IMG/VR virus record: IMGVR_UViG_3300026544_000002
Span: 1 to 64,000 of that record
DNA from: a virus
Strand: one strand, 5' to 3'
Length of the DNA: 64,000 bases
The notes beneath the pieces were generated by a model. That model made no database searches. It was not told the DNA's origin and saw only the letters and a list, made by a program, of their open reading frames with translations. How positions within the stretch are numbered: the stretch's first letter is position 1; each line of letters opens with the position of its first letter. This document shows, piece after piece, positions 13,627-43,893 of this stretch. The translations under genes and the position numbers were made by a program.

Positions 13627-13926
13627 ATGAATAAGAAAATTATTTATGTTTTGACAGTATATTATAAATATAGTATGTTGGACATGTCTTTTGATTTTAG
13701 AATCAAAGGAAATATTACATATCGGAATAAAAAATATGCTATTGATGCAATGAAAACACATGATGGTCCTGAATTTCATTATACATATTTTGAAAGACCA
13801 AGTGAAATTATGATAGAAATATTACGTTCAATATCATCAAAATTGTTATCTGTTATAGATGAAGATTTGTATAGAAACGGACCTGTTCAAAATAAGGAGT
13901 ATACTGGTGAAATTGAAATTGAATAA
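13627..13926 (+). CDS. Hypothetical protein
   Basis: The start at 13627 is favoured by AAAGG 7 bases upstream; the ATG at 13612 has none. About 99 residues, mostly beta-strand at the N-terminus. The 3' end overlaps the radical-SAM gene by 20 bases. No motif recognised. Confidence 0.55.
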   Translation: MNKKIIYVLTVYYKYSMLDMSFDFRIKGNITYRNKKYAIDAMKTHDGPEFHYTYFERPSEIMIEILRSISSKLLSVIDEDLYRNGPVQNKEYTGEIEIE

Positions 13927-14926
13927 TAAAATTCAATTAGTAAATTGGATTTTGACAAGAAAATGTAATTTAGAATGTGATTATTGTGGTATTGTTAGAA
14001 ATAGTAATGAAACAATATATCCCAATATTAATTATTATAATTCTTTTCAAATGAATTATAATTATGTCATAGAATCATTAGAACAATTTAAACAATATTT
14101 ACCAGATTGTTTTCATATTTTTTATGGGGGAGAACCATTTATGTTTCCTCATTTAGATAAAGTTATTCAATATTGTAATGATAATAATATTTGGTACACT
14201 ATTATAACAAATAATTCTAAAAAAATTCAACCTAAAATAATAAAAGTATTAGACAAAGTTGGATTGTTTAGAGGATTAACAGCTAGTATTGATCCTATTA
14301 TTTATGATCCGATTTTTCATCCATCTAAAAAAGATAGAAGAGAAAAAAGTTTAGCTGGTTTGGAAAATTTAATTTCTATTTCTGATAGAGTAGATGATAT
14401 GATGGCTGAAATTACTATTGATAAAAGTAATTTGGAGTATATTTATCAATTAGTAGAAAAATTGACAAAACATAAAATTTGGTCAAGTATTACATTTGTG
14501 GATATTAAGAAATCAAGATATTATGATTTTTCAAATGTTACTGATATAAATGAATTAGTTGATGATACACAAGCATTGAGAAGTGTTTGTGCGAAAATGA
14601 TAGATGATGGTTTATGGATTCATATGGGAGAAGAATTATTAGATAGGACATTGAATATTCTTCCATCTACATTTAATTGTGAATTAGAAAATTATATGCA
14701 CAATTTAACAATAGATGCAGATGGTAGTATTCGTTTGTGTTTAAGAATAAAAGGAAAATACACATCAGATTATTATGTAAAAGATTTCTTTAATGATTTT
14801 GAAAATATTCATAATGCAATGATTGTAGATAAAAAAGAATATTGTAAATTATGTAATTGGACCTGTCCTATTATGAGCAAATTAGCAGTTGAAGAGGATA
14901 TGACAAAAGATATTTTACATATATAA
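13907..14926 (+). CDS. Radical SAM protein with C-terminal SPASM-like cysteines
   Basis: GTG at 13907 lies 7 bases after AAGGAG. The product (339 residues) has the radical-SAM signature CNLECDYC (C20, C24, C27), which binds the 4Fe-4S cluster that cleaves S-adenosylmethionine. FYGGEPF corresponds to the GGE motif. The C-terminus holds CKLCNWTC and an upstream Cys (SIRLCLR), arranged like a reduced SPASM/twitch auxiliary cluster. This differs from the short QueE enzymes, so a 7-deazaguanine role is not supported even though QueD is nearby. The substrate, perhaps a peptide or nucleotide, is unknown. Confidence 0.82.
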   Translation: MKLKLNNKIQLVNWILTRKCNLECDYCGIVRNSNETIYPNINYYNSFQMNYNYVIESLEQFKQYLPDCFHIFYGGEPFMFPHLDKVIQYCNDNNIWYTIITNNSKKIQPKIIKVLDKVGLFRGLTASIDPIIYDPIFHPSKKDRREKSLAGLENLISISDRVDDMMAEITIDKSNLEYIYQLVEKLTKHKIWSSITFVDIKKSRYYDFSNVTDINELVDDTQALRSVCAKMIDDGLWIHMGEELLDRTLNILPSTFNCELENYMHNLTIDADGSIRLCLRIKGKYTSDYYVKDFFNDFENIHNAMIVDKKEYCKLCNWTCPIMSKLAVEEDMTKDILHI

Positions 14927-18841: not shown

Positions 18842-18888
18842 AAAATAGCCCCCATTATTTTTAACAATAGATAATGGGGGCTATTTTT
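18842..18888 (+). terminator. Intrinsic terminator after RecD-like gene
   Basis: A perfect 17-bp stem (18842-18858 with 18871-18887) with the GC core GCCCCC/GGGGGC, ending in T residues and followed by ACGTT. It separates the helicase operon from the ubiquitin-like operon. Confidence 0.88.
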
Positions 18889-18943: not shown

Positions 18944-19282
18944 ATGAAATATTGGTTAGGAATTTCTAAATTTTCAACGAGTAAAAATAGAATAAATATA
19001 ACTTCTGAGGATGGTTTTCATATAGTTATATATTTAATAGATGGCGAAAAATTTTTATATAACAAATGCGAATCTACATTGAAATTACAATCAAAAGAAA
19101 TATTTATAACAAAAACAAAAGGTAGTGGACAAACAAAATCTATAATGGGTTTCGCTTCTTTTATGTCTAATATTGGGTTATTGTTAAAAAAACATATTAT
19201 AAATAAAAAAATAAAAAAATATGATTTGAATAATTTTTATGAAAATATTTTCAATATTATAAAACAAATTTTGGAGGAATAA
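18944..19282 (+). CDS. Hypothetical protein at head of ubiquitin-like operon
   Basis: A 112-residue protein. No clear ribosome site precedes the ATG. Instead an 11-codon ORF (18912-18947) with AGAGGT upstream ends across its start (ATATGA), suggesting translational coupling. The first half is beta-rich and the C-terminal helix is basic. First gene after the terminator; role unknown. Confidence 0.55.
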   Translation: MKYWLGISKFSTSKNRINITSEDGFHIVIYLIDGEKFLYNKCESTLKLQSKEIFITKTKGSGQTKSIMGFASFMSNIGLLLKKHIINKKIKKYDLNNFYENIFNIIKQILEE

Positions 19283-19291
19283 TATAAGAGA

Positions 19292-21625
19292 ATGGAAACT
19301 ATTCATTTAGAATCTTCGTTAGAATTACCAGCTACATATGTATTATCGAATCTCATAGTGAACACACAACCTGAAAGAATTATGAAATATAAATATGTAT
19401 ATGGAACATTTGATGATATTTATTGGACAAAAATGTTTATTGTGCCAATGGGGGTAAGATCATTTTTATTTGATACTTCTTTTGAAAATCATTTTAAAGA
19501 TGTTTTGTATTCTACAAAAGTGACTATAAATAATAGATCATATAATAAAATAAAATTGTTGATGCCAGATTTATTATTTGTTGTAAAATTACATCCTTAT
19601 GGATCAAATGAAATTGCTCAATTGTATGTACAACAAATAAATGGACCTTTTGATGTTAACAATATTTCAAATTTGTCAAATGCCCCATTGCCAAATTTAT
19701 ATGATTCTGGACAAGTATGTCAATCTGGAAAAATTTCTATCATGAAAATGTATAAAAACAAATCATATGTGTTGAAAAATATGTTTGATATATCAGAATA
19801 TTATATTGATATGTTTTTGAATTCTGCATTTAATAATGATTTGACCAGTACTTACCAATATTCAATTATAAAAAAATTAGGATTTCTATCAATTACTGAT
19901 TTTTTAAATATAGCAAGTGACCCTAAAAAATATAATATATTAAAGAAGTTATATATCAAAAATCATCTAGATGACCATAGTTCTTTAAGAGAAACATTTA
20001 AAGCATCTTTTTTAAATAATAAAAATAAAGGAGTGTGTAAGTCATTATTTGAAAATAATTTTATAAAATCAAATGATAATGATATGGTTACAAGATTAAT
20101 TATAAATAATGATTCTTTTATAAACAGTATCAGAATTAATGATTATATAAAATATGATAATGAAATTGTAAAAGTATTATCATTTGGAGAAAATGTTACA
20201 AATAGACAAGTTTTTATGAGTTCGTCAAATTATGAAGAAGGTCATTATATAAAATATATGACAGACTCTTATAGAATTGGAACAATTCATTTTTCAGAAA
20301 TATTGGAAAAAGTTGAATTAGATTCAATAGAAGATGTTGATGAAAAAGATTATCCAATTGATATTAAAAACAAATTCATAAGAAGTTATAAAACAGAAAA
20401 TCTTCATTTAATAGTTGGAATCGTAAAAACTATTATGAATAATGACTATTTTTATAAAATTAAAAGAGGGATAGATTCCGTTGATTTTGTCAAATTTAAT
20501 ATCGAACGACCTCGTGATATATATAAAATAGTAGAATTGGGATTACCCGATGTTTTAAATAACGAATGTTACAGAAGTAAATATGTTTATGGTGGGGAAA
20601 ATGCTCATATAATGTCTATTGATACAAATAAAACATATTCTTTTGATTCTATAAAAGATCGTTTGATTGAAGTATCTAATAGTTTTATAACAATGTTAAA
20701 CGAAGATGAAACAGAAATCGAAGAGTTGAATACAAATTATTTGGTTAAAAAAGATATATATGAGAATCATTTGAACATGGATACTTCTGATATATCTATT
20801 ATTATCGACATGGATAATTCTGTTATTCCATTGCATGATAATAATTTGAAATTTAAATCAGATAGAGAAAACTCTTTGTATGGATTAGATATTGATGCTT
20901 CATTATATATAAGAGAAAATATCGATGAATATTTAGAAAAATTAGTTGCTACATGGAATAAAAATGGTGAAGCAAAAAATATCAAATATTGGGATAGAGA
21001 AAAAGGTAATTACGCAATAATGGATTTGGTATTAAAGAAAGATCAATTAAGATTGCCTATTGATATCAATGATCAATCATTTTGTAGTAAATATTCGATT
21101 GAAGATTTTTATTATGATAATGATGTAACATCAATATTTGTAAATGTCAAAAATTTGGAAAATAAAGATGAAGAAATTTATGGGTTAACTTTGATAAAAA
21201 TTTTAGAATTTTATAAAAATAATTCAAATGAACCAGTGTCTTATTTTAAATCAGATATAGAAAATAAAGATAATAGATATATTAATAAATATGTTAGTAT
21301 TAATAAAAAAGTACAATTCAATAGTGTAAAATGTGAAATTTCAAAAGCATTTAAAGTATTTCAAATAATAGATACTGATTTTACATCATCTGTTAGATTT
21401 AATAGATTTTTTACTTCTGATAATATTGTCATATGTATCAATAAAGAAATTGATCCTTTTGAAAAAATATTTGAAATAAGAGAAGCCTCTGAATTTACTG
21501 ATCATAGAAATGTTGAAATAATAATGACATCTTCGTATCAGGCATATAATTATGTTCCTCGTGATACATATATTGCTAATTTTCTAATGAATCCTAGATA
21601 CAACCAAGTTTATCTTGGTATATAA
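19292..21625 (+). CDS. Candidate E2-like protein (PRTRC protein B / Prok-E2_D type), 777 residues
   Basis: Within residues 85-180 the pattern MPDLLFVV, EIAQLYVQ, APLPNLYDSGQVCQSG, then ISEYYIDMFLNSAFN follows the layout I know for PRTRC system protein B, an E2/UBC-like family. There a 'P-LLF' strand leads to an 'APLPN-Y-G-xC-G' loop and an 'F-S-F' helix. The Cys in that loop is C143 here, the candidate thioester site. PRTRC B proteins are much shorter, so about 600 C-terminal residues are a phage addition without recognised motifs. Downstream lie a likely paralogue, a JAMM protease, an E1-like enzyme and a ubiquitin-like protein. The E2 call is by pattern and context. Confidence 0.55.
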   Translation: METIHLESSLELPATYVLSNLIVNTQPERIMKYKYVYGTFDDIYWTKMFIVPMGVRSFLFDTSFENHFKDVLYSTKVTINNRSYNKIKLLMPDLLFVVKLHPYGSNEIAQLYVQQINGPFDVNNISNLSNAPLPNLYDSGQVCQSGKISIMKMYKNKSYVLKNMFDISEYYIDMFLNSAFNNDLTSTYQYSIIKKLGFLSITDFLNIASDPKKYNILKKLYIKNHLDDHSSLRETFKASFLNNKNKGVCKSLFENNFIKSNDNDMVTRLIINNDSFINSIRINDYIKYDNEIVKVLSFGENVTNRQVFMSSSNYEEGHYIKYMTDSYRIGTIHFSEILEKVELDSIEDVDEKDYPIDIKNKFIRSYKTENLHLIVGIVKTIMNNDYFYKIKRGIDSVDFVKFNIERPRDIYKIVELGLPDVLNNECYRSKYVYGGENAHIMSIDTNKTYSFDSIKDRLIEVSNSFITMLNEDETEIEELNTNYLVKKDIYENHLNMDTSDISIIIDMDNSVIPLHDNNLKFKSDRENSLYGLDIDASLYIRENIDEYLEKLVATWNKNGEAKNIKYWDREKGNYAIMDLVLKKDQLRLPIDINDQSFCSKYSIEDFYYDNDVTSIFVNVKNLENKDEEIYGLTLIKILEFYKNNSNEPVSYFKSDIENKDNRYINKYVSINKKVQFNSVKCEISKAFKVFQIIDTDFTSSVRFNRFFTSDNIVICINKEIDPFEKIFEIREASEFTDHRNVEIIMTSSYQAYNYVPRDTYIANFLMNPRYNQVYLGI

Positions 21626-21644
21626 AAAGGAGATTTAAAAAGAA

Positions 21645-23702
21645 ATGATTTTGAACCAAGAAGAAATATTTGATGATGGGTATATATGTGTTAAAAATCC
21701 AAATTTTACAATAACTCGTACTAATTTCTTAAAAAATTTATTAAATTATACAACCAATGAAATAAATAATGAGAATTGTATATGGTTTAGAAATAATGGA
21801 ATAATGTGGCATACTTTATATACAATAGAACCTGGATATAAAGAAATGATGATAAATGATAAAGAAATTATTTTATCATTGCCTCAATTAGTGATACATG
21901 TTGGAAAAAATAAGTATTCTAAATATGAAATAGATATATTTTTTCAAGATACCAATGGTAATTTAGATAATGTTTATGAATCTTTTTTACATGTAGATAA
22001 TATCGATATTGATATTGGAGAAAGTAATTATGTAAAAGAATCAACATTATTAATTAATCATATTTTACATGAATATAATTTTCAATATGATGGAAGTATT
22101 GATGAGCTATATATGATGATAAATCAGAACAATGTATTTGATAATTTTCCTATGATTGATATTAAATTATCAGATATGATAGAAATTTGGAAAAAAGAAA
22201 TAGATGAATGTATAAATTTGAATATTATTTATAATATGGTGATTAAACAAAGAAATGACTTTACCCCCATGTCTTATTATATTAAAAAGAAAATATTCAT
22301 GGGTGTATTATATGAAACAATGAAACATATTAAATTAGGAAACAAAAAATATTTGATTTATGGTATTGATTGTTATGAAAATATAAAAGATTCTATTAAT
22401 AATAATTTTAAAAATGATAAAATTTTATTATATGATTTGGAACAACGTAAGAAAGTTGCATTACCATTGAAAAGAATAATAGAATCTAAATTCAAAATGT
22501 TTGAAAATGGACATTCTATTATACCAAATAGTTCTATAAAAATAGGGAATTATATAAAATATGTAAATAGAGGTAGCGATGGTCCTGTTGCGATAACTCC
22601 TGAGAAAATAATTAATATCAGATTAGATAAAGATAACTATTCATTGATTTTGGAAACAAATCGTTTAAAACGGAATAAAGAAGTTATAACAAATAATATT
22701 TCGTATAATTTAATCGAAGAACCAAGAAATATTGATGCATTAGATATTTATCAATTAATTGGTCTTAAAGATAATAAAGAAAAATTTCCAATTTTTAAAA
22801 TAAAAGATTCTACGATTGTTTCAAAAAAAGATAATAATCAAGAAAAATATTATTTGAATGATATATGTGATTTTATTGGTTCACATTGTTTTTATAATAA
22901 AATAGAAGATTTTTATTTTGATATACTTAGTAGAAAACAATTTGTTGATATGTTAAATATTTTGAATAAAGAAATAAAAACTTTAAAAAATAATTATTAT
23001 TTTGGTTATATACCTAATAATAAAATGCTTGGAAAAAAATTATTAAAATGTGATAATTTATATATCGATGATGAAGCAGGTGTTATACACTTACAATGTG
23101 ATGATGAATATTTTAATAAAGAAATTGATGATATAAAATTAACTGATCATGAAGCTGATGTTGTTATGTTGCCTTGTGTTATCAATGATGTTCATATAGA
23201 TCCTGATGAAATCTATATTTCTCATTTAAAAAGATTTTTTAATAGAAGAATACGAATCAATGGTGTACGTATAGAAAATAATGAATTGGTTTATATGTTT
23301 ACAACAATTGATGATATGGAAAATCATACAAATACAATCCGTGATAACTATTTTTGTGGAAAACAAATTTATATAGAAGGATTGCAAATTGGTCAATATG
23401 GTAAATTAAAAGATATTGGTGCTTCATTAGGATTTAAAAAATCTTTATGGCATGGTATCAAATATTTTTATGAGAATAAAAATGGTGAAAAAATGGTATT
23501 GTTTGAAAATAATATTGCTGTTAATGTTAAATTGATTGATATTGATTATTTTAATAATACCTCTAGAAATGTAAAAAAGAGAAATATGACATTTTTGTCG
23601 AGTAATGATTTACGATCTATAAGAATGTCAACAAAAAGAAAAATAACAGATCATATTTTACACACATTTGATTCTATTGCTTGTGAAATTCATACAAATT
23701 AA
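21645..23702 (+). CDS. Large protein, likely divergent paralogue of the upstream E2-like gene
   Basis: A 685-residue protein. Its segment PQLVIHVGKNKYSKYEIDIF (residues 80-99) aligns with PDLLFVVKLHPYGSNEIAQL of the upstream protein. Later parts also resemble it (IKIGNYIKYVN against IRINDYIKYDN; EEPRNID against ERPRDIY). The cysteine loop (PLPN..G.VC) is not found, so if it is E2-like it has lost the active site, as eukaryotic UEV proteins have. An AAAAGGAG ribosome site is present. Confidence 0.5.
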   Translation: MILNQEEIFDDGYICVKNPNFTITRTNFLKNLLNYTTNEINNENCIWFRNNGIMWHTLYTIEPGYKEMMINDKEIILSLPQLVIHVGKNKYSKYEIDIFFQDTNGNLDNVYESFLHVDNIDIDIGESNYVKESTLLINHILHEYNFQYDGSIDELYMMINQNNVFDNFPMIDIKLSDMIEIWKKEIDECINLNIIYNMVIKQRNDFTPMSYYIKKKIFMGVLYETMKHIKLGNKKYLIYGIDCYENIKDSINNNFKNDKILLYDLEQRKKVALPLKRIIESKFKMFENGHSIIPNSSIKIGNYIKYVNRGSDGPVAITPEKIINIRLDKDNYSLILETNRLKRNKEVITNNISYNLIEEPRNIDALDIYQLIGLKDNKEKFPIFKIKDSTIVSKKDNNQEKYYLNDICDFIGSHCFYNKIEDFYFDILSRKQFVDMLNILNKEIKTLKNNYYFGYIPNNKMLGKKLLKCDNLYIDDEAGVIHLQCDDEYFNKEIDDIKLTDHEADVVMLPCVINDVHIDPDEIYISHLKRFFNRRIRINGVRIENNELVYMFTTIDDMENHTNTIRDNYFCGKQIYIEGLQIGQYGKLKDIGASLGFKKSLWHGIKYFYENKNGEKMVLFENNIAVNVKLIDIDYFNNTSRNVKKRNMTFLSSNDLRSIRMSTKRKITDHILHTFDSIACEIHTN

Positions 23703-23728
23703 AACTATATTATAAAAAAGAGGAAAAA

Positions 23729-24781
23729 ATGTCTAAAAAGATTTTTGTATTAGATAAGGATTTGGATTTGTCAGAAGTTAAAAAATCTAATCATTGTTAT
23801 ATTATTGCAAAGAATGGTGTATTCTTTAAAGATAATCAACATAACATTGAAACATGTACTAAAATTGATAGTATTGAAGGATTGTCTTCTTTGCAACCAT
23901 ATATTAAATGGAGATTTCCAAAAATCACCAAAAGACAATTTAACATGGTTATTCAATTTTTCAGAAAAGTTTATACAAAGCATAAATCAGAATGTATGGT
24001 ATTGATAGGTTGGGATAGAAAGAAAAAAGATATTATATTATTTGCTCCTGATTCACAAGAAGTGTCAGGGGCGAGTATCAAATATCAAATGACTAATATC
24101 CCAGGTGTTGCTTTAATTGGTTCGATTCATTCACATGCCAGTATGTCAGCGTTTCATTCTGGAGTTGATATTGCTGATGAAATGAATTTTGATGGTTTGC
24201 ATATTACAATTGGAAAATTTTCTGATAAAACAAATACTTTTCAAATTTCATCTCAATTAACTTCTGGTAAAATGAGAGAAACTATTGATCATACTCAAAT
24301 AATTGAAGATATCTATATTAATTATAATGTTAAATTAGAAGGAAAAGGTTTGAAAGATTGTAGCAATGACAGCATCATAGAAGCTATCATGAATAATAAA
24401 TGTGATATTAAATATGATGGTGAAATGTGTATTGATGAAAAAGAATTAGATAAAGAAGATAAAGAAATTATCGAAAGTTGGTTAGAAACAGTTGTCCCCC
24501 CACGGACATATATTTATGGTAAAAATTGGCACAGTGGTTATGGATATAACAAGCAACAGAGTTTCACACCTATTAAGAAAGATGTACCAGCAGTTGAACA
24601 TCCAATAGGAAGCAATGATTCTTTGTTACAAGTACAAGATGAAATTGATTTAGCTACAATGTATGGAGTAGAAGAATTAGATGAATTGTTAATTGATGAT
24701 AATTATGATTTAGATATTATGGATAATGCTAATATTTTTAATAAAGGTAATAAAAATAACGCTTCAAAAGTGGAGATGTAA
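23729..24781 (+). CDS. JAB/MPN (JAMM) metalloprotease, PRTRC protein A-like
   Basis: A 350-residue protein with an exact JAMM motif: HSHASMSAFHSGVD gives H134, H136, S144 and D147, with E88 (SECMVLIGW) as the upstream glutamate. It is followed by DGLHITIGKFSD, which also fits PRTRC A/Prok-JAB proteins. Such enzymes remove or mature ubiquitin-like modifiers. The C-terminal third is acidic and probably flexible. The stop overlaps the E1-like start (TAATG), so the two are translationally coupled. The likely substrate is the ubiquitin-like protein encoded at 25.5 kb, or its conjugates. Confidence 0.88.
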   Translation: MSKKIFVLDKDLDLSEVKKSNHCYIIAKNGVFFKDNQHNIETCTKIDSIEGLSSLQPYIKWRFPKITKRQFNMVIQFFRKVYTKHKSECMVLIGWDRKKKDIILFAPDSQEVSGASIKYQMTNIPGVALIGSIHSHASMSAFHSGVDIADEMNFDGLHITIGKFSDKTNTFQISSQLTSGKMRETIDHTQIIEDIYINYNVKLEGKGLKDCSNDSIIEAIMNNKCDIKYDGEMCIDEKELDKEDKEIIESWLETVVPPRTYIYGKNWHSGYGYNKQQSFTPIKKDVPAVEHPIGSNDSLLQVQDEIDLATMYGVEELDELLIDDNYDLDIMDNANIFNKGNKNNASKVEM

Positions 24782-25491
24782 TGAAAACAAATATTTATTT
24801 AGTAGGCATGGGAGGAATTGGTTCACAATTATGTGAACCAATTTGTCGATTTGTTAATTATTTAGAAAATAAATCTGATTATTGTATTACTTTCATTGAT
24901 GGTGATGAATATGAATCTTCTAATCAAACAAGACAAACTATTGAATTAGCTGATATTGGACAAAACAAAGCAGTTAGTCAATATAGTAAAATGTATAATT
25001 TATTTCCAAATTTAGAAATAAATGCAAATGCTATATATATCAATAATCAGAATATCAAAGATTGTTTTAATAAACCAGATGAAAACACGATTATTCTATC
25101 TGGTGTGGATAATAACAAAACAAGAAATGTTATTCAACAATATTGTCTTGCATTAAAAAATGTTCTGTTACTATCAGGAGGTAATGAATATATTGATGGT
25201 GATGTGCAAATTTATGCAAGAAAACAAGGAGTTGATTTGACTCCCCCGATTTGGAAATGGAATCCTAATATTAAAAATCCAAAAGACCGGTCGCCGGAGG
25301 AGATTGGTTGTGATGAATTAGTAGAATCCACACCTCAGTTGATTTTTACAAATGGTATGGTTTCCGCTTGTATGTGTATGGCATTTTATAATTATTATAA
25401 AATGTTTGATACTGATGTTTCCATTGACAAAAGTGTAGTAATGTTTGATATCCCTGAATTATCAGTTGTATCAAAGATGAGAAATCTGTAG
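24781..25491 (+). CDS. ThiF/E1-like adenylating enzyme, PRTRC ThiF-like
   Basis: A 236-residue Rossmann-fold enzyme. The nucleotide loop is GMGGIGS (9-15). D40/D42 lie in FIDGDEYE, N48 and R51 in SNQTRQ, and K63 in GQNKA, all as in E1/ThiF/MoeB. SGVDNNKTR supplies the magnesium aspartate D110. C177 in GCDELVESTPQLIFTNG is placed where PRTRC-type E1 proteins have a conserved cysteine before a Q-x-x-x-x-N stretch, so it is the candidate thioester Cys. It should adenylate the C-terminus of the ubiquitin-like protein encoded next. A strong hairpin lies in codons 12-21. Confidence 0.9.
   Translation: MKTNIYLVGMGGIGSQLCEPICRFVNYLENKSDYCITFIDGDEYESSNQTRQTIELADIGQNKAVSQYSKMYNLFPNLEINANAIYINNQNIKDCFNKPDENTIILSGVDNNKTRNVIQQYCLALKNVLLLSGGNEYIDGDVQIYARKQGVDLTPPIWKWNPNIKNPKDRSPEEIGCDELVESTPQLIFTNGMVSACMCMAFYNYYKMFDTDVSIDKSVVMFDIPELSVVSKMRNL
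24816..24843 (+). other. Perfect 12-bp hairpin near the start of the E1-like gene
   Basis: AATTGGTTCACA (24816-24827), loop ATTA, then TGTGAACCAATT (24832-24843). It starts 35 bases after the ATG, within the codons for the glycine-rich loop, so it could affect ribosome entry or early elongation. Confidence 0.7.
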
Positions 25492-25543
25492 TAAAATTAA
25501 CTAGTTGATTTAAAAAAGAAACAAATTAAAGGAGAACAAAAAC

Positions 25544-26152
25544 ATGTCTGATTTCAATTTTGATAGTGTTGTTGCTGTAGCTGATTTGCAAGAAATGACT
25601 GTAAAAGACCTTCGGGGTATTTGTGCTGATCTAGGATTGGCTCGGTATAGCAAGGCACCAAAACCAAATTTGGTTAAAATGATTTCTGAATATTATTCAG
25701 ATGCGTTAATGGAAATGACTGCAAAAGATTTACGATCTATTTGTGTCGATCGTGGTATTACTGGAGTTGCTAAAACAACAAAACCTAATTTGATTGATTT
25801 GCTTTTAAAATCTGTTCAGCCAGTAAATGCACCAGAAGAAATTTCGTCAGAAGATATTGTTGATATTTCTTCGGATGATAATGAAAATAATGAAGATTCC
25901 GATTCTTCATCTGGAACTATTACCGTTATTAACGGTGCTCGCTCTCGGACGATTCCCTTTGAAGAAGGGAAAACAGTGTGGGATATCCATCAACAGATGG
26001 CTAATGAAATGGGGATTGCCGCACATCCAAGTTTTACAGTAAATGATACAGATGCACCAAATAATGTTGTTATCCGTGAAGGTGACACTATTGAATTCTT
26101 TAAAGTAAGTGGGACTAAAGGAATCATAGGTACACTTTTGAAAAAATGTTAA
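25544..26152 (+). CDS. Tandem SAP-like plus ubiquitin-like (beta-grasp) protein, PRTRC protein C-like
   Basis: A 202-residue protein. Residues 15-50 and 56-91 are two copies of a SAP/HeH-like unit (EMTxKDLRxIC, then KPNLxxxI), usually DNA-binding. After an acidic linker (98-122), residues 124-193 look like a beta-grasp domain: TITVINGARSRTIPF, GKTVWDI, then REGDTIEFFKVSGTKG. The GTKG at 190-193 is how I recall PRTRC C-type proteins ending. Here nine residues (IIGTLLKKC) follow, so the JAMM protease may have to trim it. AAAGGAG precedes the start. The SAP modules suggest that DNA-bound partners are tagged; this is inference. Confidence 0.72.
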   Translation: MSDFNFDSVVAVADLQEMTVKDLRGICADLGLARYSKAPKPNLVKMISEYYSDALMEMTAKDLRSICVDRGITGVAKTTKPNLIDLLLKSVQPVNAPEEISSEDIVDISSDDNENNEDSDSSSGTITVINGARSRTIPFEEGKTVWDIHQQMANEMGIAAHPSFTVNDTDAPNNVVIREGDTIEFFKVSGTKGIIGTLLKKC

Positions 26153-26175: not shown

Positions 26176-26219
26176 AAGAATGTCTCGTATATGTTTATCG
26201 TATACGAGACATTCTTTTT
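26176..26219 (+). terminator. Intrinsic terminator after the ubiquitin-like gene
   Basis: A perfect 16-bp stem (26176-26191 with 26201-26216), 9-base loop and a T-run. It closes the operon that starts after the terminator at 18.9 kb. Confidence 0.88.
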
Positions 26220-26256: not shown

Positions 26257-26598
26257 ATGATGATTATTGATGATATTTTAGAAAATATAGAACAATCTGA
26301 TTTTAGAAAAGATTTAATTATTCTCTGTGATAAAATGAAAGAACAAATAACAGAAAAAAATGATAGATTAGATGAAACAGAAATTTTGTATTATTATTGT
26401 TATTCTTCAACTAAATTTTTTAATAAATTTCTTGTATTAACAATGGATATTTTTGATGAAGAAATTTACTATATTGATGTATGGGCATTTAATAAAAAAA
26501 CAGAAGAATATAAACGATATAATACAAAAACAGTGAATGCTTCATCTGCTAAAGAATTATTAATTAAATATGCAAAAATACTAAAGAATTTAATATAG
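26257..26598 (+). CDS. Hypothetical protein
   Basis: A 113-residue protein with GGAG 10 bases upstream. A central beta hairpin rich in aromatic residues (FLVLTMDIFDEEIYYIDVWAF) lies between helices. No family recognised. It is the first gene of the short unit that carries the second ThiF-like protein. Confidence 0.6.
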   Translation: MMIIDDILENIEQSDFRKDLIILCDKMKEQITEKNDRLDETEILYYYCYSSTKFFNKFLVLTMDIFDEEIYYIDVWAFNKKTEEYKRYNTKTVNASSAKELLIKYAKILKNLI

Positions 26599-26610: not shown

Positions 26611-27408
26611 ATGATAGGAATAATCGGAGTGGGATCAATTGGTAAAAATTTATTAGATTCTTTAGTATCAAAACTTCCAAATGAAAAATTTATAGTTATA
26701 GATGATGATACGATTAATAAACATAATATCCAATACAACAAAAAATATATTGGATTTGAAAAAACATTAGCATGTGTCGATCAGTATAAAAATGTATCGG
26801 CAATATCAGAATATGTTAATAACGATAAATTATCAACATTAATAAAAAAATCATTAGACCAATGTTCTACTATTTTTGATTGTAGAGATACTTTTGAAAA
26901 CAGAATAACATTTGATGCTATTAAAATATTCGTCAATAAAGATAAATTAATAATTGATTTTAGAAAAAAAATTTTGTATAGGTATGATGTTGAAGGTGAA
27001 TATGTTAGTTATATAAGTGACCAATTTATAAAATCATTGATCATAACTTTTGTAAACATGTGGATAAATAAAAAATCTTGTATTGAAAAATATATTAAAA
27101 ATGAAAATGCGATTTCGATTAATCAAATTGGTTCGATTGAAGAATTATATTCTTCTGTTGCAGTAGCAAAAGATATTGAAAAAATTATAAATAATAAAAT
27201 AAAAGATATCGATACTGTCAAAGTAGATATTTTTGATGGTTTGTATAATATAGTGAATAAAACATATGATTTAAAAGAGTATAAACCATCTGATATCGTC
27301 AGTATAATTAATAGAGAAACTCATTGGTTTCCAGCTATGTATTTTATGCCAGAAACAATAAAAAATATCATGTATCTAAGAATCTTTAATCAAACAGGAG
27401 GTGCGTGA
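26611..27408 (+). CDS. Second, divergent ThiF/E1-like Rossmann protein
   Basis: A 265-residue protein starting IIGVGSIGKNLLDSL, a GxGxxG nucleotide loop, then VIDDDTINKHN with the two aspartates at the end of the second strand, and IFDCRDTFENR where ThiF proteins have the Mg-binding Asp and a following Arg. The arginine of the usual NLxRQ motif is replaced (NIQYN), and no cysteine stands in the expected catalytic position. It is probably a non-canonical or inactive E1-like partner. The C-terminus is TGGA. TGGAGG precedes the ATG. Confidence 0.6.
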   Translation: MIGIIGVGSIGKNLLDSLVSKLPNEKFIVIDDDTINKHNIQYNKKYIGFEKTLACVDQYKNVSAISEYVNNDKLSTLIKKSLDQCSTIFDCRDTFENRITFDAIKIFVNKDKLIIDFRKKILYRYDVEGEYVSYISDQFIKSLIITFVNMWINKKSCIEKYIKNENAISINQIGSIEELYSSVAVAKDIEKIINNKIKDIDTVKVDIFDGLYNIVNKTYDLKEYKPSDIVSIINRETHWFPAMYFMPETIKNIMYLRIFNQTGGA

Positions 27409-28230: not shown

Positions 28231-31005
28231 ATGCCAAAATTACTGAATAGAAATTTCGCCAAAGATTTACCTGAAATAACAACATCTAATTATTTTGAAA
28301 AGAAAAAAAGATATCATAAAGATGGTTTGTTTTCTGAACATATATTTGGATTGTCAAACAATTATACTTGTCGATGTGGTATTTATCATGGCAAACATGC
28401 CGAAGGACAAAAAAGCAAATGTGGTGGGAAATTTTGTACTGATTTAGAAATTACAAACAGCATAAAACGACGAAGACAATTTGCAAAAATCACTTTACCA
28501 ATACCTTTGCTGAATAGAACATATTTGGCATTAGTAAAAAGAACTTTACCTGTAACGGAAAAAGAATTATTTGATGATGTAAATAAATTGATGAAATCTC
28601 ATAGGACAATTCTATTAAAATATGATGATGAATATATGATAAAATCATTAGATGAAGAAGAAAATATAAATGAATTGAAATATGAATTTTGGCAAATGCA
28701 TGAAGCAGTTGAAAAATTAATTAGACATGTTATAACCATTTATATTACAATTGATCCAACAAATGAAGATTATAAAATGTTGCTTAAACAATTAGAAGAA
28801 CAATTGTTTATGTATGAAGTAATTGTTATACCTCCTTCAATGAGACCTATTTCTCAAATAAATCCAACAACAAACTCCGTTGATCAGTTAAACCAATTCT
28901 ATTATCAATTATTAGTAAAAAAAGAAATTATGGCAGCTGGTGATATTGATGTAACCCGTCATATGAAAATTTATCAGCAATATTATATGCAATTTCAAAA
29001 AACAGTTGATGATATGTTTGATTATGTAATAAATGCTGTTTCTAAAAAAGAAGGATTGATTCGTGGGAATATTTTAGGAAAACGAATTGATTTTTCAGGA
29101 AGAGCTGTTATTGCGCCATCACCGACAATTGAATTAGATGAATGCATATTACCATATCGAATGGTATTAGAATTATATAAAATTCCTATTGCTAAGAAAT
29201 TGATTGAAAAAGGATATTTTAAATTTATCCATTCTGCACTAGAACGAGTCGAATCATGTCAATTTTATAATGATCCACAATTGATTGAAGTTTGTAGATC
29301 GGTTATTGGTGAAGATGTATGTTTACTTAATAGACAACCTAGTCTTCATAAATTGAGTTTGGTTGCATTTAAAATAAAAGTTGAACCTGTTGATGTTATT
29401 TATATTCATCCAATGGTTTGTCGTGGTTTCAATGCTGATTTTGATGGCGATGCAATGGCAGTATATCTTCCTGTTACAGAAGAATCACAAGCAGAAGCTA
29501 AATCACAAGCATTATCAACAAATTGTTTGTTAAATCCAACTGATATGAAAATAACTACGACTCCTAGCCAAGAAATGGTTTTAGGATTGTATATGTTAAG
29601 TACAATTTCTAAAGGAAAATATGCAAAGAAAGTTTTATATAAAGGTGAAGAAATAACAGAAGGAATGAAAATAATTAATGAATGTTTTCCAGATGATTTT
29701 CCTTTGATTAACAAACCAGTAACATCTGATGTTATTCGACAATATATTTATAATTCGTTTAATTTATATAATGGTGATATTAAAAATATTTTAGATAATA
29801 TCAAAACTGTTGGATTTGTTTATGCTACTTTGATTGGACATACGATTTCTTTACAAGGAATGTTATCACAAACTAAATTACGTGATGAAATATATGCACT
29901 TCCAAAAGTAACTGATCAAATTAAAGAAATAACAGGTGATAGAGTTTCTAAATTTTTGAAAGAACATTTTAAATATACTGATATGATAGAATCAGGAGCA
30001 AGAGGAAGTTGGGATCAAGCTCGACAATTAATTCTTTCTCGTGGATTTATTTCTAACTTCAAAGGAAATATATTAACAACTCCTATTGAAAATTCATTTG
30101 TTGATGGATTAACACCAATGGAATTTTTTACATCATCTTTTGGTTGTAGGAAAGGATTATTAGATGTTGCTGTTAAAACATCATTTTCTGGATATCTTTT
30201 TAGAAAATTTACATTTGCTTGTTCGAATTTGATGTTAGATCATGATAATGAAGATTGTGGAACAGATCAATATGTTTCTATTTATATTTCTGATATCAAA
30301 AAAGCACAATCTATAAATGGAAGATGGGTTACATTAGAACCTAATGATCATGAATCATTATTCATGGTAGAACCGTCTAATATGAAAAGAATCATTGGAA
30401 AAAAGATTTTCATGAGAAGTCCAATGTATTGCAAAACTGAAAAAATTTGTAAAAAATGTTATGGTGAATTATATAGATATTTAAACAAAAGTCGATTTAT
30501 TGGTTCTATTGCTGCTCAAGCATTAGGAGAATCAAATACACAAATGGTTTTGAGAACATTTCATACATCTGGTGTTGCCTCTATTGATGAAAATTCTATC
30601 AACGAATCAGGTGAAATGGAACAAAAAGATATTGTTGGTGCATTAGCATTAATTTCTAAATTAGTTCACATTTATGAAAAAGATAAAAATGCGGATGATT
30701 TGGTGTCTGATCTTTTTGAAATTTATTCTAAAGATAGATTCTTTATGCATGTTCATTTTGAATGTTTGGTTTCACAATTAATGTGGTATAACGATAAACA
30801 GAAATGGAGAACTGTAGAAAATCGTCATGAAAAACCATACCAGATGAAATCAATTGTAGCGATTCCGTCATTAGAAAGTTGGATAATGGGAATTTCTTTT
30901 TCAAATACTAAAAAAGAATTAATTAATAGTATGTTACAATCTGGAATATATTCAGGGGGTGTCATAGATAAAATAATGTGCGGTGTTTCATATAAAAACA
31001 TTTAA
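28231..31005 (+). CDS. DNA-directed RNA polymerase beta' subunit, compact and unsplit
   Basis: A 924-residue beta' homologue. An N-terminal zinc site (CRCG, later CGG and C) is followed by GKRIDFSGRAVI (double-psi barrel region), LNRQPSLHK and the catalytic triad NADFDGDAM (D403, D405, D407). A bridge helix/trigger loop region contains AAQALGESNTQMVLRTFHTSG, preceded by a second zinc-type cluster (CKTEKICKKC). C-terminal ISFSNTKKELI matches the cellular SFQxTTxVL element. All core regions are present in one chain, unlike phiKZ-type phages in which beta' is split, and it is about two thirds of the cellular length. The ATG has no strong ribosome site (TGGAG 17 bases away). Confidence 0.95.
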   Translation: MPKLLNRNFAKDLPEITTSNYFEKKKRYHKDGLFSEHIFGLSNNYTCRCGIYHGKHAEGQKSKCGGKFCTDLEITNSIKRRRQFAKITLPIPLLNRTYLALVKRTLPVTEKELFDDVNKLMKSHRTILLKYDDEYMIKSLDEEENINELKYEFWQMHEAVEKLIRHVITIYITIDPTNEDYKMLLKQLEEQLFMYEVIVIPPSMRPISQINPTTNSVDQLNQFYYQLLVKKEIMAAGDIDVTRHMKIYQQYYMQFQKTVDDMFDYVINAVSKKEGLIRGNILGKRIDFSGRAVIAPSPTIELDECILPYRMVLELYKIPIAKKLIEKGYFKFIHSALERVESCQFYNDPQLIEVCRSVIGEDVCLLNRQPSLHKLSLVAFKIKVEPVDVIYIHPMVCRGFNADFDGDAMAVYLPVTEESQAEAKSQALSTNCLLNPTDMKITTTPSQEMVLGLYMLSTISKGKYAKKVLYKGEEITEGMKIINECFPDDFPLINKPVTSDVIRQYIYNSFNLYNGDIKNILDNIKTVGFVYATLIGHTISLQGMLSQTKLRDEIYALPKVTDQIKEITGDRVSKFLKEHFKYTDMIESGARGSWDQARQLILSRGFISNFKGNILTTPIENSFVDGLTPMEFFTSSFGCRKGLLDVAVKTSFSGYLFRKFTFACSNLMLDHDNEDCGTDQYVSIYISDIKKAQSINGRWVTLEPNDHESLFMVEPSNMKRIIGKKIFMRSPMYCKTEKICKKCYGELYRYLNKSRFIGSIAAQALGESNTQMVLRTFHTSGVASIDENSINESGEMEQKDIVGALALISKLVHIYEKDKNADDLVSDLFEIYSKDRFFMHVHFECLVSQLMWYNDKQKWRTVENRHEKPYQMKSIVAIPSLESWIMGISFSNTKKELINSMLQSGIYSGGVIDKIMCGVSYKNI

Positions 31006-31025: not shown

Positions 31026-34000
31026 ATGTATCCGAATAATCCAACATTGCGCTTACCAGATAGAAATATATTTAATATACGACAAGAAAATTATAATCAA
31101 TTAATGGAAGATATTGAAGAAATGTTAAAAGTTCCATTAAAATATGGATTTGAAATTGAAAAATTTGAAAAAGTAAACACTCGATACCACGGAAATAATT
31201 TAATAAATACAGTAAAAGAAAATATTGTACTTAAATTATCAAAGGGTGGAAAAATAATTGATCTATCAATGCAGATTCCAAAATTAATTGATGGACAGTG
31301 GTTCATAATAAATAAAAGAAAGAAAATTCCAAAATATCAATTATATGATATTCCTATTTTAACATTCAATACTCCAAAAAATAAAGAAATACGAATACAA
31401 ACAAATATTGGTAGAATTTCTGTATTTTGGAAACATAAAAAGAAAAATAAATTTGATTTCTTTGTTACATTGTCAGCATTTGGTAGAAGTATTCCATTTG
31501 CTATCGTGTTAAATGCTTTCTATGGACCTGATATTGTAAAAGAAAAATTTCTTTCAGATATAAATGAGAGAGATATTTTATCAAATGAAAAATTATCAGT
31601 ATTACAATTGTTACAATTAGATTTATTGAATTTAACAAATGATAAAATAACGAAAAAAGACTTTATACATAATATTGGATTAACTTTTTCTGAAAGAAAT
31701 CCTAATGACAAAAGTGCTGATTATATGTTTTCTTTAGAAAACATTCTTAACATTGATGTTATGACAAAAAGATTTATCGAAGAAGAAAATGTTATAGAAT
31801 GTTTGTTAAATATTATAGTTAATGATTTATGGATCAATGATTTAAATTATACAAATAAAAGAATCAGATGTTTTGAATATGCTGTATTACAATATTTCAT
31901 AATAAATATTTATAAATTATGTGTTAATTGTAGAAATGAAACAAAACCAAAATTTAATGTATCTAAAACAAAAATTTTAGGAGACAGCAATACTTCTGAA
32001 ATTATTCAATTTGATTTTAGTATAAATCCAATAGATCAGATTGCTCAGATTGCTCAGATTTCATTAACAGGTCCAAATGGATTCAAAAAGAAATCTGTAC
32101 CAACTAAATTAAGAGATTTAGATAGAACAATGACAGGTAAAATTTGTCCAGTTGATACTCCTGATAGAGAAAATTGTGGTGTTGTTCAAAATCTTGTACC
32201 AACTGCTAGATTTGATGATAGATTTAAATTTATTGATGATATTACAGAAAATGGTGCTATAACTTCTATTCCTATCACAATGATTCCATTTTTAGAACAC
32301 ACTGATCAGACACGCTTACAAATGGCATCTGGACAAATGAAACAATCTATTCTTTTGAAGAATTTTCATGTTCCTTTGATCTGTTCTGGTGCTGAAAAAA
32401 GTTTTTCTGAACATAGTAGTTTTTTATATAAAGCCAAAGAAGATGGTGAAGTGATTTTTATTAATAAAAATCATATGATAATTGGATATAAATCTGGTGA
32501 AGTATGTGTATATGATATTGGGGTCATCCCGATAACATCAGAAAATATGAATGTTATGATGACTGATCTGAAAAAAGGGGATAATATATCAAAAGGACAA
32601 GTAATCACATATAGTGTGTTTTGTCAAAATGAAGGTATCACAATTGGTCAAAATTTCAAAATAGCGTTCATGTCATATTATGGATATAATCATGAAGACG
32701 GAATAGTAATTTCTGATAGATTGGTCAAAGATGGTTGTCTAACATCTTTGCATTATGTTGATATGTCATTTAATATTTCTCCTACAAAAGTATTGTTAGA
32801 TTTACCAAATAATGATAGTGATAAATATTTACCACTATATCCTGTTGGAACATCTTTACAGAAAGGTGATGTATATGCCATTTTGAAAGAAATGTATTTA
32901 TTTGGTGCTATGAAAAATAATTCTTATAATATTTTTGAAGATAGTATGGAGAAAATTGCAAAATATGATTTATTAATTGAAGATATTACAATATATGCAA
33001 ATGAATGGTACACAGATTTAAAAGAATATGATAATTGGGTAAAAAGTAAAATTGATGAACAAATAAATAAAGATAATGCTATTATAAATGCTATTGTATC
33101 TAATACTGACAAAAAAGATGCGAAACGAATTATTACAGAAAATAATTTAGATTCTCATAGTCATCCTGGTAAATATAAAAACAAAGATGAATTAATTAAA
33201 GGAATTCGTATTGATATAAATGGTGTATACGAAAGACCAATTCAAATTGGTGATAAATTGGCAAATAGACATGGAAATAAAGGGGTAATAACTGTTATAA
33301 AAAAACATGATCAAATGCCACGATTACCAGATGGTTCTCATATAGACATATGTTTAAATCCAGTTGGTGTTATATCTCGTATGAATACTGGTCAGTTATT
33401 TGAATTATCTCTTAGTAAATCATTAGTTGATTTGAAAAATAATATGAAAAAAATGTTGGATGAATCTGTTGATCAGCATGATATTAAGAAATATTTTATA
33501 GATTATTTACATATAGCAGATAAAACATCTGAAAAATGGATTGTTAGTTATGTGAAAAATAATTTACCCAAAGTAATCAATCATGATTATATTGACAAAA
33601 TATATCTCATTCAGCCAATGTTTGCTTCTATTAATAACCAAGATTTGCATAAATTAATGAAATACACAGGAACAAATTTTGAAGAAAAAATATATGATCC
33701 TGTATCTGGTGAATATGTTATTAATGAAATAGCCACTGGTTATATGTATCTTATGAAATTGATTCATATAGCAGAAAAGAAATTAGCTTTTCGAAGTATT
33801 GGTATAACATCACAAAAAACTATGCAACCTGTCGCAGGTAAAGTAAATAACGGTGGTCAGAAATGTGGTGAAATGGAAAGTATTTGTTTAGTATCGAATG
33901 ATATGCCAATCAATCAACATGAATTTTATACAACAAAATCAGATTGTGTTGATGGAAAAAATAATTTTCTTAAAAAAGCAATTGGTACTGATTATCTCGA

Positions 34001-34094
34001 TTTAGAAGAAAATCCAGATATGGAATCAGAAACTTTGAAATTATTTAAGGCATATATGATGACTATAGGTCTTGATATAAATGGGGAAATATAA
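31026..34094 (+). CDS. DNA-directed RNA polymerase beta subunit, compact and unsplit
   Basis: A 1022-residue beta homologue. Conserved elements are CPVDTPDRENCGVV (cellular CPxETPEGxNxGL), YNHEDGIVIS (NxEDxxxIS), IGDKLANRHGNKGVI (active-site lysines and RHGxKG) and near the C-terminus NNGGQKCGEMES (GGQRFGEME). It pairs with beta' just upstream (20-base gap, AAAGGA). No alpha, omega or sigma gene is visible in the window, so promoter recognition must come from elsewhere in the phage or host. Confidence 0.95.
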   Translation: MYPNNPTLRLPDRNIFNIRQENYNQLMEDIEEMLKVPLKYGFEIEKFEKVNTRYHGNNLINTVKENIVLKLSKGGKIIDLSMQIPKLIDGQWFIINKRKKIPKYQLYDIPILTFNTPKNKEIRIQTNIGRISVFWKHKKKNKFDFFVTLSAFGRSIPFAIVLNAFYGPDIVKEKFLSDINERDILSNEKLSVLQLLQLDLLNLTNDKITKKDFIHNIGLTFSERNPNDKSADYMFSLENILNIDVMTKRFIEEENVIECLLNIIVNDLWINDLNYTNKRIRCFEYAVLQYFIINIYKLCVNCRNETKPKFNVSKTKILGDSNTSEIIQFDFSINPIDQIAQIAQISLTGPNGFKKKSVPTKLRDLDRTMTGKICPVDTPDRENCGVVQNLVPTARFDDRFKFIDDITENGAITSIPITMIPFLEHTDQTRLQMASGQMKQSILLKNFHVPLICSGAEKSFSEHSSFLYKAKEDGEVIFINKNHMIIGYKSGEVCVYDIGVIPITSENMNVMMTDLKKGDNISKGQVITYSVFCQNEGITIGQNFKIAFMSYYGYNHEDGIVISDRLVKDGCLTSLHYVDMSFNISPTKVLLDLPNNDSDKYLPLYPVGTSLQKGDVYAILKEMYLFGAMKNNSYNIFEDSMEKIAKYDLLIEDITIYANEWYTDLKEYDNWVKSKIDEQINKDNAIINAIVSNTDKKDAKRIITENNLDSHSHPGKYKNKDELIKGIRIDINGVYERPIQIGDKLANRHGNKGVITVIKKHDQMPRLPDGSHIDICLNPVGVISRMNTGQLFELSLSKSLVDLKNNMKKMLDESVDQHDIKKYFIDYLHIADKTSEKWIVSYVKNNLPKVINHDYIDKIYLIQPMFASINNQDLHKLMKYTGTNFEEKIYDPVSGEYVINEIATGYMYLMKLIHIAEKKLAFRSIGITSQKTMQPVAGKVNNGGQKCGEMESICLVSNDMPINQHEFYTTKSDCVDGKNNFLKKAIGTDYLDLEENPDMESETLKLFKAYMMTIGLDINGEI

Positions 34095-34095
34095 A

Positions 34096-34959
34096 ATGTT
34101 TGATGCTGATCTTCCAGATGTACAAGAAGCATACAAGCCAGAATATGAAATTTATCTACCAAAAGTGGGAGTTGAAAATATCAAACTTCCATTTAAATTA
34201 TTATTACGAAATTTAAAAAATCGAGATTTGATTGCTAATACATCGATATCAACAGATTTAGATAAAGAAAAGAAAGGTATTTCAATGTCTAGACTGTTGT
34301 TATCGATACAAGATTTATTGAATTATGGTTTGAATTGGGATATTATCAAACAATGTTTATATAATATTTCTGATGCAATTGGCAGTGCAAATAGTCATAT
34401 TAAATTTGATTTTGAATTACCGATTGATAAAATCTCACCATTATCGGGTCATATATTTCCATTATTTTATAAATGTTATTTTGAAGGATATAAACATAAT
34501 TCAAAATATACATTCAATCAATCAGTTATAGTGCAGTATTCATCATACTGTCCTTGTTCAGCTGCTCTATCTGATGATTTAATAAAAAATGGATTTTCTC
34601 AAGGATTCCCACATGCACAACGATCTTTTGTAAAAATTATTGTTGATATGGATTTACAAAATAAAAAACATATATGGTTAGAAGATATTATTGACATTGT
34701 TAATGATAATATTCATACACAACCATACCCAATTATAAAAAGAATAGATGAACAAGAATTAGCCAAAGTTGCATCAAATAACCCATTATTTGTGGAAGAT
34801 GCTATTAGAATAATTTCCTATCATTTAGAGAAATTGGTAGGAAATGGAATAAACGATTGGATTGTAAAATGTAAACATGAAGAATCTATTCATACACATG
34901 AAGCAATTGCAATTAATTTTTCAAAAGTTGTTAACGGTTTTCGTTATAACGACATTTAA
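34096..34959 (+). CDS. folE2: GTP cyclohydrolase IB (FolE2)
   Basis: Start ATG 34096 has GGGGAAA 7 bases upstream; an in-frame ATG at 34081 lacks one. 287 residues. The FolE2 signature is clear: YCPCS with the zinc/catalytic Cys at C152, GFPHAQRS (H173) matching GAHNQRS, IIKRIDEQ...NPLFVED matching LLKRxDE...NPxFVED, and HEESIHTHEA matching ENxESIHNHxA. It converts GTP to dihydroneopterin triphosphate, the substrate of QueD. It follows RNA polymerase beta directly. Phage FolE2 and QueD usually serve 7-deazaguanine DNA modification; QueC, QueE and a DNA transglycosylase are not in this window. Confidence 0.93.
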   Translation: MFDADLPDVQEAYKPEYEIYLPKVGVENIKLPFKLLLRNLKNRDLIANTSISTDLDKEKKGISMSRLLLSIQDLLNYGLNWDIIKQCLYNISDAIGSANSHIKFDFELPIDKISPLSGHIFPLFYKCYFEGYKHNSKYTFNQSVIVQYSSYCPCSAALSDDLIKNGFSQGFPHAQRSFVKIIVDMDLQNKKHIWLEDIIDIVNDNIHTQPYPIIKRIDEQELAKVASNNPLFVEDAIRIISYHLEKLVGNGINDWIVKCKHEESIHTHEAIAINFSKVVNGFRYNDI

Positions 34960-43655: not shown

Positions 43656-43893
43656 AATTTTAATAGAAGTATCTAGTGGAACAATTACAAATGTTAGAGC
43701 AACAAATAATGATATTGATGTACATATTATTGATCATGATATTGAAGATGATGATTATCCGACTGAAATAATGGAAGAATTTTATAGTAAACCGATTGAT
43801 TATTATGGTGATCCATTAACAGATGAAGAATTTACAAACATGTTAAATAATCTTATAGAAGATGCAAAAAAGCATATAGAGGAGGATTTATAA
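43645..43893 (+). CDS. Small acidic protein
   Basis: ATG 43645 is preferred (TGGAG 6-9 bases upstream) over an in-frame ATG at 43624. 82 residues, very acidic (DHDIEDDDYPTE). Ends one base before the next gene. Confidence 0.6.
   Translation: MKNKILIEVSSGTITNVRATNNDIDVHIIDHDIEDDDYPTEIMEEFYSKPIDYYGDPLTDEEFTNMLNNLIEDAKKHIEEDL

Follow-up and report, generated by a model that had tools for sequence, protein, structure and literature searches.

The first 64,000 bases (1-64000) of the 102,491-base virus record IMGVR_UViG_3300026544_000002, here called the window, come from a tailed phage, as judged by family searches that find a terminase large subunit, a baseplate wedge protein, type II topoisomerase subunits, and two large RNA polymerase subunits. 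Upstream of the polymerase genes lies a block that encodes a very long E2-like protein, a JAMM protease, an E1-like enzyme, and a modifier in which a ubiquitin-like protein (Ubl) is fused to Rho_N/SAP repeats. I think it likely that this block is a functioning phage-encoded system of ubiquitin-like conjugation, of the PRTRC-like kind, and such a conjugation module is probably core to an uncharted lineage of large, uncultured phages. The gene set, its motifs, their invariance, purifying selection, and synteny are all matters of observation.

A block conserved beside the phage RNA polymerase genes

Scans of viral contigs with single proteins from the window (JAMM, E2, and the beta' subunit of RNA polymerase) found no relatives. 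A degenerate DNA pattern for HSHxxMxAFxSxxD picked out at least 120 viral stretches and 94 genome stretches, almost all of which encode a relative of the JAMM protease and most of which encode an E1 too. In trees of these motif-found relatives, L126, L069, and L224 lie nearest to the window, with moderate support. An alignment of beta' sequences, used as bait against viral contigs, brought out a lineage in which most beta' sequences share 42-46% identity with that of the window. In this lineage (contigs of up to 248 kb) one gene order recurs: E2 - JAMM - E1 - Rho_N/SAP-Ubl - E1b - beta' - beta, where E1b is a second E1-like protein.

Upstream of beta', 29 of the 30 informative records have E2, JAMM, and E1, and all five families are present in 27. 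These counts were made by hand from tables; the 30 records include the window and leave aside duplicates and contigs that end before the region, and IMG/VR lists no completeness values for them. L247 has close relatives of both polymerase subunits, but the E2-JAMM-E1-Ubl block is absent upstream of them and its 43.7-kb contig has no JAMM match. There are lesser variations on the theme. The E2 of L235 is a separate protein of 233 amino acids (aa), followed by one of 717 aa, L274 carries the Rho_N-bearing region and E1b in a single open reading frame (ORF), and the Ubl gene of the L126 phage runs across two fetched pieces.

The module genes are under purifying selection wherever this can be estimated. 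With synonymous change unsaturated, the ratio of nonsynonymous to synonymous substitution (dN/dS) is 0.065-0.215 for the Ubl, 0.126-0.147 for E1, 0.121-0.213 for JAMM, and 0.157-0.361 for E2, values that are rough because synonymous distances are large but that lie well below 1. The first-pass annotation of the window saw neither the link to the RNA polymerase genes nor the core status of the block across the lineage.

Some contigs stand apart. L118, L084, L062, and about 100 other viral contigs encode E1 and JAMM with no E2 found by profile; in the vicinity of each of the three named lies a gene for a small candidate Ubl (72-100 aa), and an E2-like motif, HPH...PCLG, occurs in L062. The 211-kb contig of L224/L235 (BPGB01000002), which bears the phage block and a phage-like RNA polymerase gene, is filed within a Woesearchaeota genome and is probably a misbinned phage.

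The enzymes, the modifier, and their neighbors

Two of the enzymes, JAMM and E1, are well supported by profiles and are much as the first-pass annotation described them. The JAMM protein has the exact motif HxH-x7-SxxD, as HSHASMSAFHSGVD, a pattern found once in the window and in 0 of 100 shuffles. It matches PRTRC_A at 4.9e-12 (NCBIfam) and Prok-JAB at 3.8e-4 (Pfam), and a JAMM profile built without the window matches it at 4.1e-21. Its H134, H136, S144, and D147 are invariant, the full motif appearing in 28 of 28 members. The E1 matches ThiF at 5.8e-19 (Pfam), PRTRC_ThiF at 1.6e-12 (NCBIfam), and a window-free E1 profile at 2.2e-39. It possesses the features that define the E1-like/ThiF superfamily, namely GxGGxG, the Arg-Gln pair, Lys, and Asp of the adenylation site, and Cys177, and these (GxGGxG, R51, Q52, K63, D110, and C177) are invariant in 29 of 29 members.

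The 777-aa protein is accepted as E2-like because of its profile matches, its invariant Cys, and its common gene position, and comparison of sequences supports the view that it is a divergent member of that family. As to the INDEPENDENCE of the E2 call, a profile of 26 lineage E2s, built without the window, reaches the window E2 by HHalign (88.8%, E=2.5e-6); HMMER with the same profile does not report it. Some other low E-values for the window E2 are partly circular, because the profiles had included the window sequence. BLASTP connects it with the E2 of L235 at 4e-4, and a window-free profile of plasmid and phage E2s finds an E2 in 13 related lineage loci. The putative catalytic residue, C143, lies within APLPNLYDSGQVCQSG and is present in 29 of 29 members; P92, N135, and N181 are invariant as well. 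The length of the protein is unusual within the motif-found set, where E2 lengths cluster at 200-270 aa and the next longest has 712 aa. E2s upstream of beta' in the lineage are mostly 780-925 aa. In its AlphaFold model, about residues 41-150 are arranged as strands, a helix, a beta-meander, a Cys loop, and then helices, an order compatible with a UBC-like fold around the Cys. Of the viral models, the one that matches it best is that of an unnamed protein of 241 aa (1.8e-3), and when PDB sequences were searched with the long-E2 profile, neither an E2 nor any significant match came up.

The first-pass annotation also took the 685-aa protein encoded next to it for a second large relative of the E2, and that claim is not supported. 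BLASTP between the two gives E=0.38 over only 31 residues, and HHalign of the 685-aa protein to E2 profiles, those of the lineage included, gives at most 4% probability. Three relatives (L243, L272, and L274) do have a pair of E2 paralogues, from which it follows that a second E2 is possible within the lineage, though unsupported for the 685-aa protein of the window.

The modifier is reasonably supported as a ubiquitin-like beta-grasp protein by profiles, and also by the invariance of its Lys-Gly, its model, and its fold matches. It had been described as a SAP-SAP-ubiquitin-like protein with GTKG near its end. Repeats and GTKG are both there, but Rho_N (3.9e-12) fits the N-terminal repeats better than does SAP (3.3e-07). 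The C-terminal part gives a ThiS-like match at 0.002 (all Pfam), and both ThiS and TGS match the ubiquitin-like domain. GTKG occupies residues 190-193 and is followed by IIGTLLKKC; K192 and G193 are invariant in 30 of 30 sequences (alignment A9). Most modifiers of the lineage stop at KG and some add one Cys or Phe, whereas that of the window adds 9 residues and that of the L126 phage 16. Such variation would be expected if the JAMM protease trimmed a precursor at the predicted cut. The first-pass annotation had staked its reading in advance on a beta-grasp fold around residues 124-193, and the AlphaFold model (mean predicted local distance difference test score, pLDDT, 74.8, and about 74-88 across most of the Ubl) is beta-grasp-like, with beta-beta-alpha-beta-beta at residues 123-186 preceded by five helices. 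Ubiquitin-like folds dominate its Foldseek matches, the best in PDB being largely ISG15, elongin B, FAT10, NEDD8, and SUMO, with probability up to 0.99.

E1b retains GxGxxG, D31, K51, and, in most members, N39 (alignment A10). It has no Arg-Gln pair and no conserved Cys at the position of C177, but 29 of 30 keep a Cys elsewhere, C91 in DCRD. It may be a regulatory partner of the E1 or a pseudo-E1. Its C-terminus in nearly all members is xG(A/G/S)A, mostly ETGAA, borne on a region of about 75 residues whose strand pattern, by eye, prompts the hypothesis of a second ubiquitin-like domain, maybe a second modifier or a docking tail. No member shows a ubiquitin-like Pfam match in that region. In the more distant phages L278 and L280, a separate gene of 84-92 aa, ending in TGAA or TGTA, adjoins a short E1b. 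Those two phages, along with L266, L268, L273, L275, and L311, possess another cassette, with a JAMM motif HxHP...FSxxD or similar and two E1-like genes, to which L278 and L280 add an HPN...C E2-like protein.

All five ORFs of the operon described in the first-pass annotation (19292-26152) are in place, as are the two strong terminators said to bracket it (Table 1), but the annotation overlooked E1b. The upstream hairpin is absent from the output of the terminator scanner because its loop is too long, and it was found by direct reading of the sequence. With a terminator at that position, the unit takes in the 112-aa ORF as well.

Table 1. Coordinates of the block and its surroundings within the window.
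Feature	Position	Strand	Remarks
Terminator-like hairpin, 5' of the unit	18843..18886	+	Perfect 16-bp stem, 12-nt loop, then T run
112-aa ORF, first of the unit	18944..19282	+	No significant family match
Long E2-like protein, 777 aa	19292..21625	+	E2 domain at about residues 40-200; C143 putatively catalytic; long extension
685-aa protein	21645..23702	+	No Pfam match; kinship with E2 unsupported by BLASTP and HHalign
JAMM protease, 350 aa	23729..24781	+	PRTRC_A and Prok-JAB matches; H134, H136, S144, D147
E1-like adenylating enzyme, 236 aa	24781..25491	+	ThiF and PRTRC_ThiF matches; putative thioester C177
Modifier, 202 aa	25544..26152	+	Two Rho_N/SAP repeats, ubiquitin-like domain ending G-T-K-G193, 9-residue tail
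Terminator-like hairpin, 3' of the modifier gene	26176..26216	+	18-bp stem
113-aa ORF	26257..26598	+	Small family; in relatives usually directly upstream of E2
E1b, second E1-like protein	26611..27408	+	ThiF 8.8e-05; no Cys at C177 position; C-terminus TGGA
Phage RNA polymerase beta'-type subunit, syntenic anchor	28231..31005	+	Family match; relatives in the lineage
Phage RNA polymerase beta-type subunit, syntenic anchor	31026..34094	+	Family match; recurrent family in relatives

Elsewhere in the window are genes for FolE2, QueD-like, and radical-SAM proteins (34081-34959, 6246-7199, and 13859-14926), which suggest nucleotide chemistry of the 7-deazaguanine type, and for an RlaP-like RNA repair nucleotidyltransferase (40747-41682). 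The L126 phage has long insertions, possibly inteins, in its RNA polymerase beta' and topoisomerase genes (L233 9248-13279; L234 16233-19766).

A proposed conjugation pathway

What I infer from these features is how catalysis proceeds, where the precursor is processed, what E1b does, and which proteins are targeted; the pathway would run as follows. The JAMM protease would cut the Rho_N/SAP-Ubl precursor after Gly193 of GTKG, releasing IIGTLLKKC. E1 would adenylate Gly193 and then hold the modifier as a thioester on C177, from which it would move on to the 777-aa E2, at C143. The extension of this E2 may select the substrate. The modifier would finally be joined to lysines of target proteins, a bond that the JAMM protease could undo. 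A dedicated cascade in which JAMM serves as both maturase and deconjugase has been predicted for such operons (PMC1779556).

The Rho_N/SAP part would direct either the modifier or the protein that bears it to DNA or RNA. If it does, then nucleoproteins of transcription or replication become the likely targets, possibly the adjacent phage RNA polymerase itself, but I offer nucleoproteins or the polymerase as targets only tentatively. A fuller version of the idea is more doubtful: that tagging is an obligate, core process in a widespread lineage of large phages, that the Rho_N-fused modifier is placed on the phage's own transcription or replication machinery, that the E1 function is split between a catalytic E1 and a Cys-less E1b with its own ubiquitin-like tail, and that the whole is a viral parallel to the SUMO-like control of nucleoproteins.

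Several considerations weigh against a functioning conjugation system. The E2 is divergent: its match to Prok-E2_D is weak (0.0074, Pfam) and below the curated cut-off, and the window-free profile of plasmid and phage E2s misses it. Its AlphaFold model is weak, with an overall pLDDT of 57 and block means of 55-88 over about residues 41-150, and matches of the model in PDB are mainly to tandem Tudor domains. The E2-like candidate with C143 put forward by the first-pass annotation stands by profiles, invariance, and synteny, but by fold alone it finds E2 enzymes only at E about 1-2.6. The Foldseek matches of the modifier have E of 0.06 or worse, none below 0.001. No E3, reader, or dedicated protease was identified, and conjugation activity is a prediction from sequence. 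Finally, the neighboring radical-SAM and SbcCD-type genes are also syntenic in the lineage, so the link between polymerase and module may be no more than ordinary conserved gene order. As to a machine that might degrade tagged proteins, the ClpP family appears in none of the five phage records searched. One of the five, G008 (the 248-kb contig of L250), encodes a proteasome-family protein above the family cut-off at 43161-43673 on the minus strand.

Known relatives and other explanations

The first-pass annotation called the block a set of PRTRC proteins known from plasmid cassettes. There is indeed a PRTRC-like set on this phage, but formal membership in PRTRC is another matter. The NCBIfam equivalogs score well short of their cut-offs (PRTRC_A 45.8 bits against 101.8, PRTRC_ThiF 47.3 against 144.75), PRTRC_B and PRTRC_C (NCBIfam) give no match, and PRTRC ParB (TIGR03734) matches nothing on the 102-kb contig, which may be a fragment. 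Because the curated cut-offs failed, no ParB is on the contig, and the E2 has no conserved downstream His, I do not file the set as PRTRC.

The resemblance to the PRTRC plasmid cassette, or operon type 6d (PMC1779556), is considerable. Separate, adjacent genes encode the E2-like, JAMM, E1-like, and Ubl proteins, the arrangement by which type 6d is recognized, with E1 unfused to JAMM. The E2 motif PxxN...C, a Ubl ending in G-x-K-G, and the JAMM motif HSHxxMxAFxSxxD are likewise shared. The window differs in the size of its E2 (777 aa against about 200-270 aa), in the fusion of its modifier to Rho_N/SAP, in its extra Cys-less E1-like gene, and in the fixed position of the block beside phage RNA polymerase genes. 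E2-like proteins of type 6d have a conserved Cys and an absolutely conserved downstream His (PMC1779556), whereas in the lineage the Cys is invariant (29 of 29) and the alignment contains no invariant or nearly invariant His after it. Profile comparison of the lineage Ubl with PRTRC_C-type Ubl aligned only 15 columns around G-x-K-G, at 13% probability. The JAMM of type 6d has an N-terminal alpha+beta domain with conserved Arg and Trp (PMC1779556), and the window JAMM protein has an N-terminal region. Type 6d operons also hold an additional alpha-helical protein (PMC1779556), whose place the 685-aa protein could fill, though no similarity was found between it and the 525-aa and 559-aa proteins of the plasmid and KLEB27-3 cassettes.

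Carriage by a phage is not in itself new, since annotated phages, Bacillus phage vB_BauM_KLEB27-3 and Vibrio phages D69, D181, and D148, already encode PRTRC-like sets, and to that extent the plasmid cassettes named in the first-pass annotation were too narrow a description. The plasmid cassettes resemble these phage sets, and GTKG forms the very end of a PRTRC_C protein from a Vibrio plasmid. As in the window, the E2-like, JAMM, and E1 genes of these phages lie close to a gene for a Ubl, here with units that end in GVKG or GTKG. Their Ubl is a polyubiquitin-like polyprotein of tandem copies without Rho_N, four in KLEB27-3 (L002 4177-4881) and three in D69 (L004 5307-6095), unlike the single, Rho_N-bearing modifier of the window. 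Their E2s are about 230-270 aa, the surrounding genes are different, and in D69 the E1 is spread over more than one reading frame.

The suggestion that the phage bears a distinct version survives for the one very long E2 (777 aa) and for the modifier fused to SAP-like (Rho_N) repeats, but not for a second E2. The conjugation chemistry itself is of an already known kind. What is new is the core status of the module in the lineage, together with the fusion of Rho_N to the modifier, an E2 of giant size, and a second, Cys-less E1. A search of the literature brought up no relevant paper that connects PRTRC with ubiquitin, nor any on PRTRC function in phages, a weak result, since subscription papers and most preprints lay outside the search. 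Nor did it turn up any account of such tagging machinery as belonging to the core of a virus.

More distant parallels may be drawn. Cap2-type proteins are fusions of E2 with E1. The Cap2/Cap3 systems of the cyclic oligonucleotide-based antiphage signaling system (CBASS), with types 6a and 6b, share the chemistry of E1, E2, and JAMM (PMC10097602; PMC1779556), but the enzymes of the window are separate, they have a dedicated Ubl, and their carrier is a phage. Cap2-type proteins are reported to act in host defense on a cGAS-like enzyme (PMC10449767). Lambda-type tail assembly also employs a phage-encoded Ubl (TAPI) and a JAMM peptidase (TAPK, JAB/NlpC) (PMC1779556), but it has neither E1 nor E2, and both proteins are part of tail assembly.

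Might the block serve some other end? The first-pass annotation had offered tagging of DNA-bound proteins, control of replication, and counter-defense as roles. In the last of these, the enzymes would tag host defense proteins, or else strip or block host ubiquitin-like conjugates of CBASS or other defenses. This is improbable. Genes for anti-defense tend to have a patchy distribution and to sit in clusters of accessory genes, whereas the block has a fixed place in nearly all members of the lineage, and as a core feature of the whole lineage it is less likely to be an accessory to counter-defense. Moreover, a dedicated modifier gene is conserved alongside, which implies more than a deconjugase. 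The idea gains from the occurrence of bacterial E1/E2/JAMM systems in anti-phage defense (PMC10097602), where interference would benefit the phage, and from the mobility of PRTRC-like systems (PMC1779556).

It is quite improbable that E1 and the Ubl act as do ThiF/ThiS or MoeB/MoaD, as a carrier of sulfur or something similar for modification of nucleotides or tRNA, with JAMM only maturing the carrier. The ThiS and TGS matches of the Ubl would suit this, JAMM-E1-Ubl sets are found with sulfur metabolism (PMC1779556), and the FolE2, QueD-like, and radical-SAM genes in the vicinity point to a chemistry of modified nucleotides. But an E2-like protein with an invariant Cys, present in the block of 29 records, would be superfluous to a carrier pathway, and the modifier ends in GxKG rather than GG and is fused to Rho_N. 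Scarcely credible is a selfish or decaying plasmid-type cassette, with no present role in conjugation, or an addiction-like module: PRTRC-like cassettes are mobile and occur on plasmids, and L247 has no block, but catalytic residues are invariant across deeply diverged members, dN/dS is low where measurable, and synteny is fixed.

A core role for the conjugation module is favored because the position of the block is fixed and conserved. Ubiquitin-like conjugation in bacteria is known mainly from patchy mobile operons and from host antiviral defense. A full set of E1, E2, JAMM, and Ubl in a fixed place across a lineage means that at least one group of viruses may depend on ubiquitin-like tagging. 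The role of PRTRC-like systems, and the proteins they tag, thereby become directly testable, and in a phage the proteome is small. L247, block-free at this locus, is a natural comparison, and the Rho_N fusion together with the polymerase neighborhood gives a concrete hypothesis as to the target.

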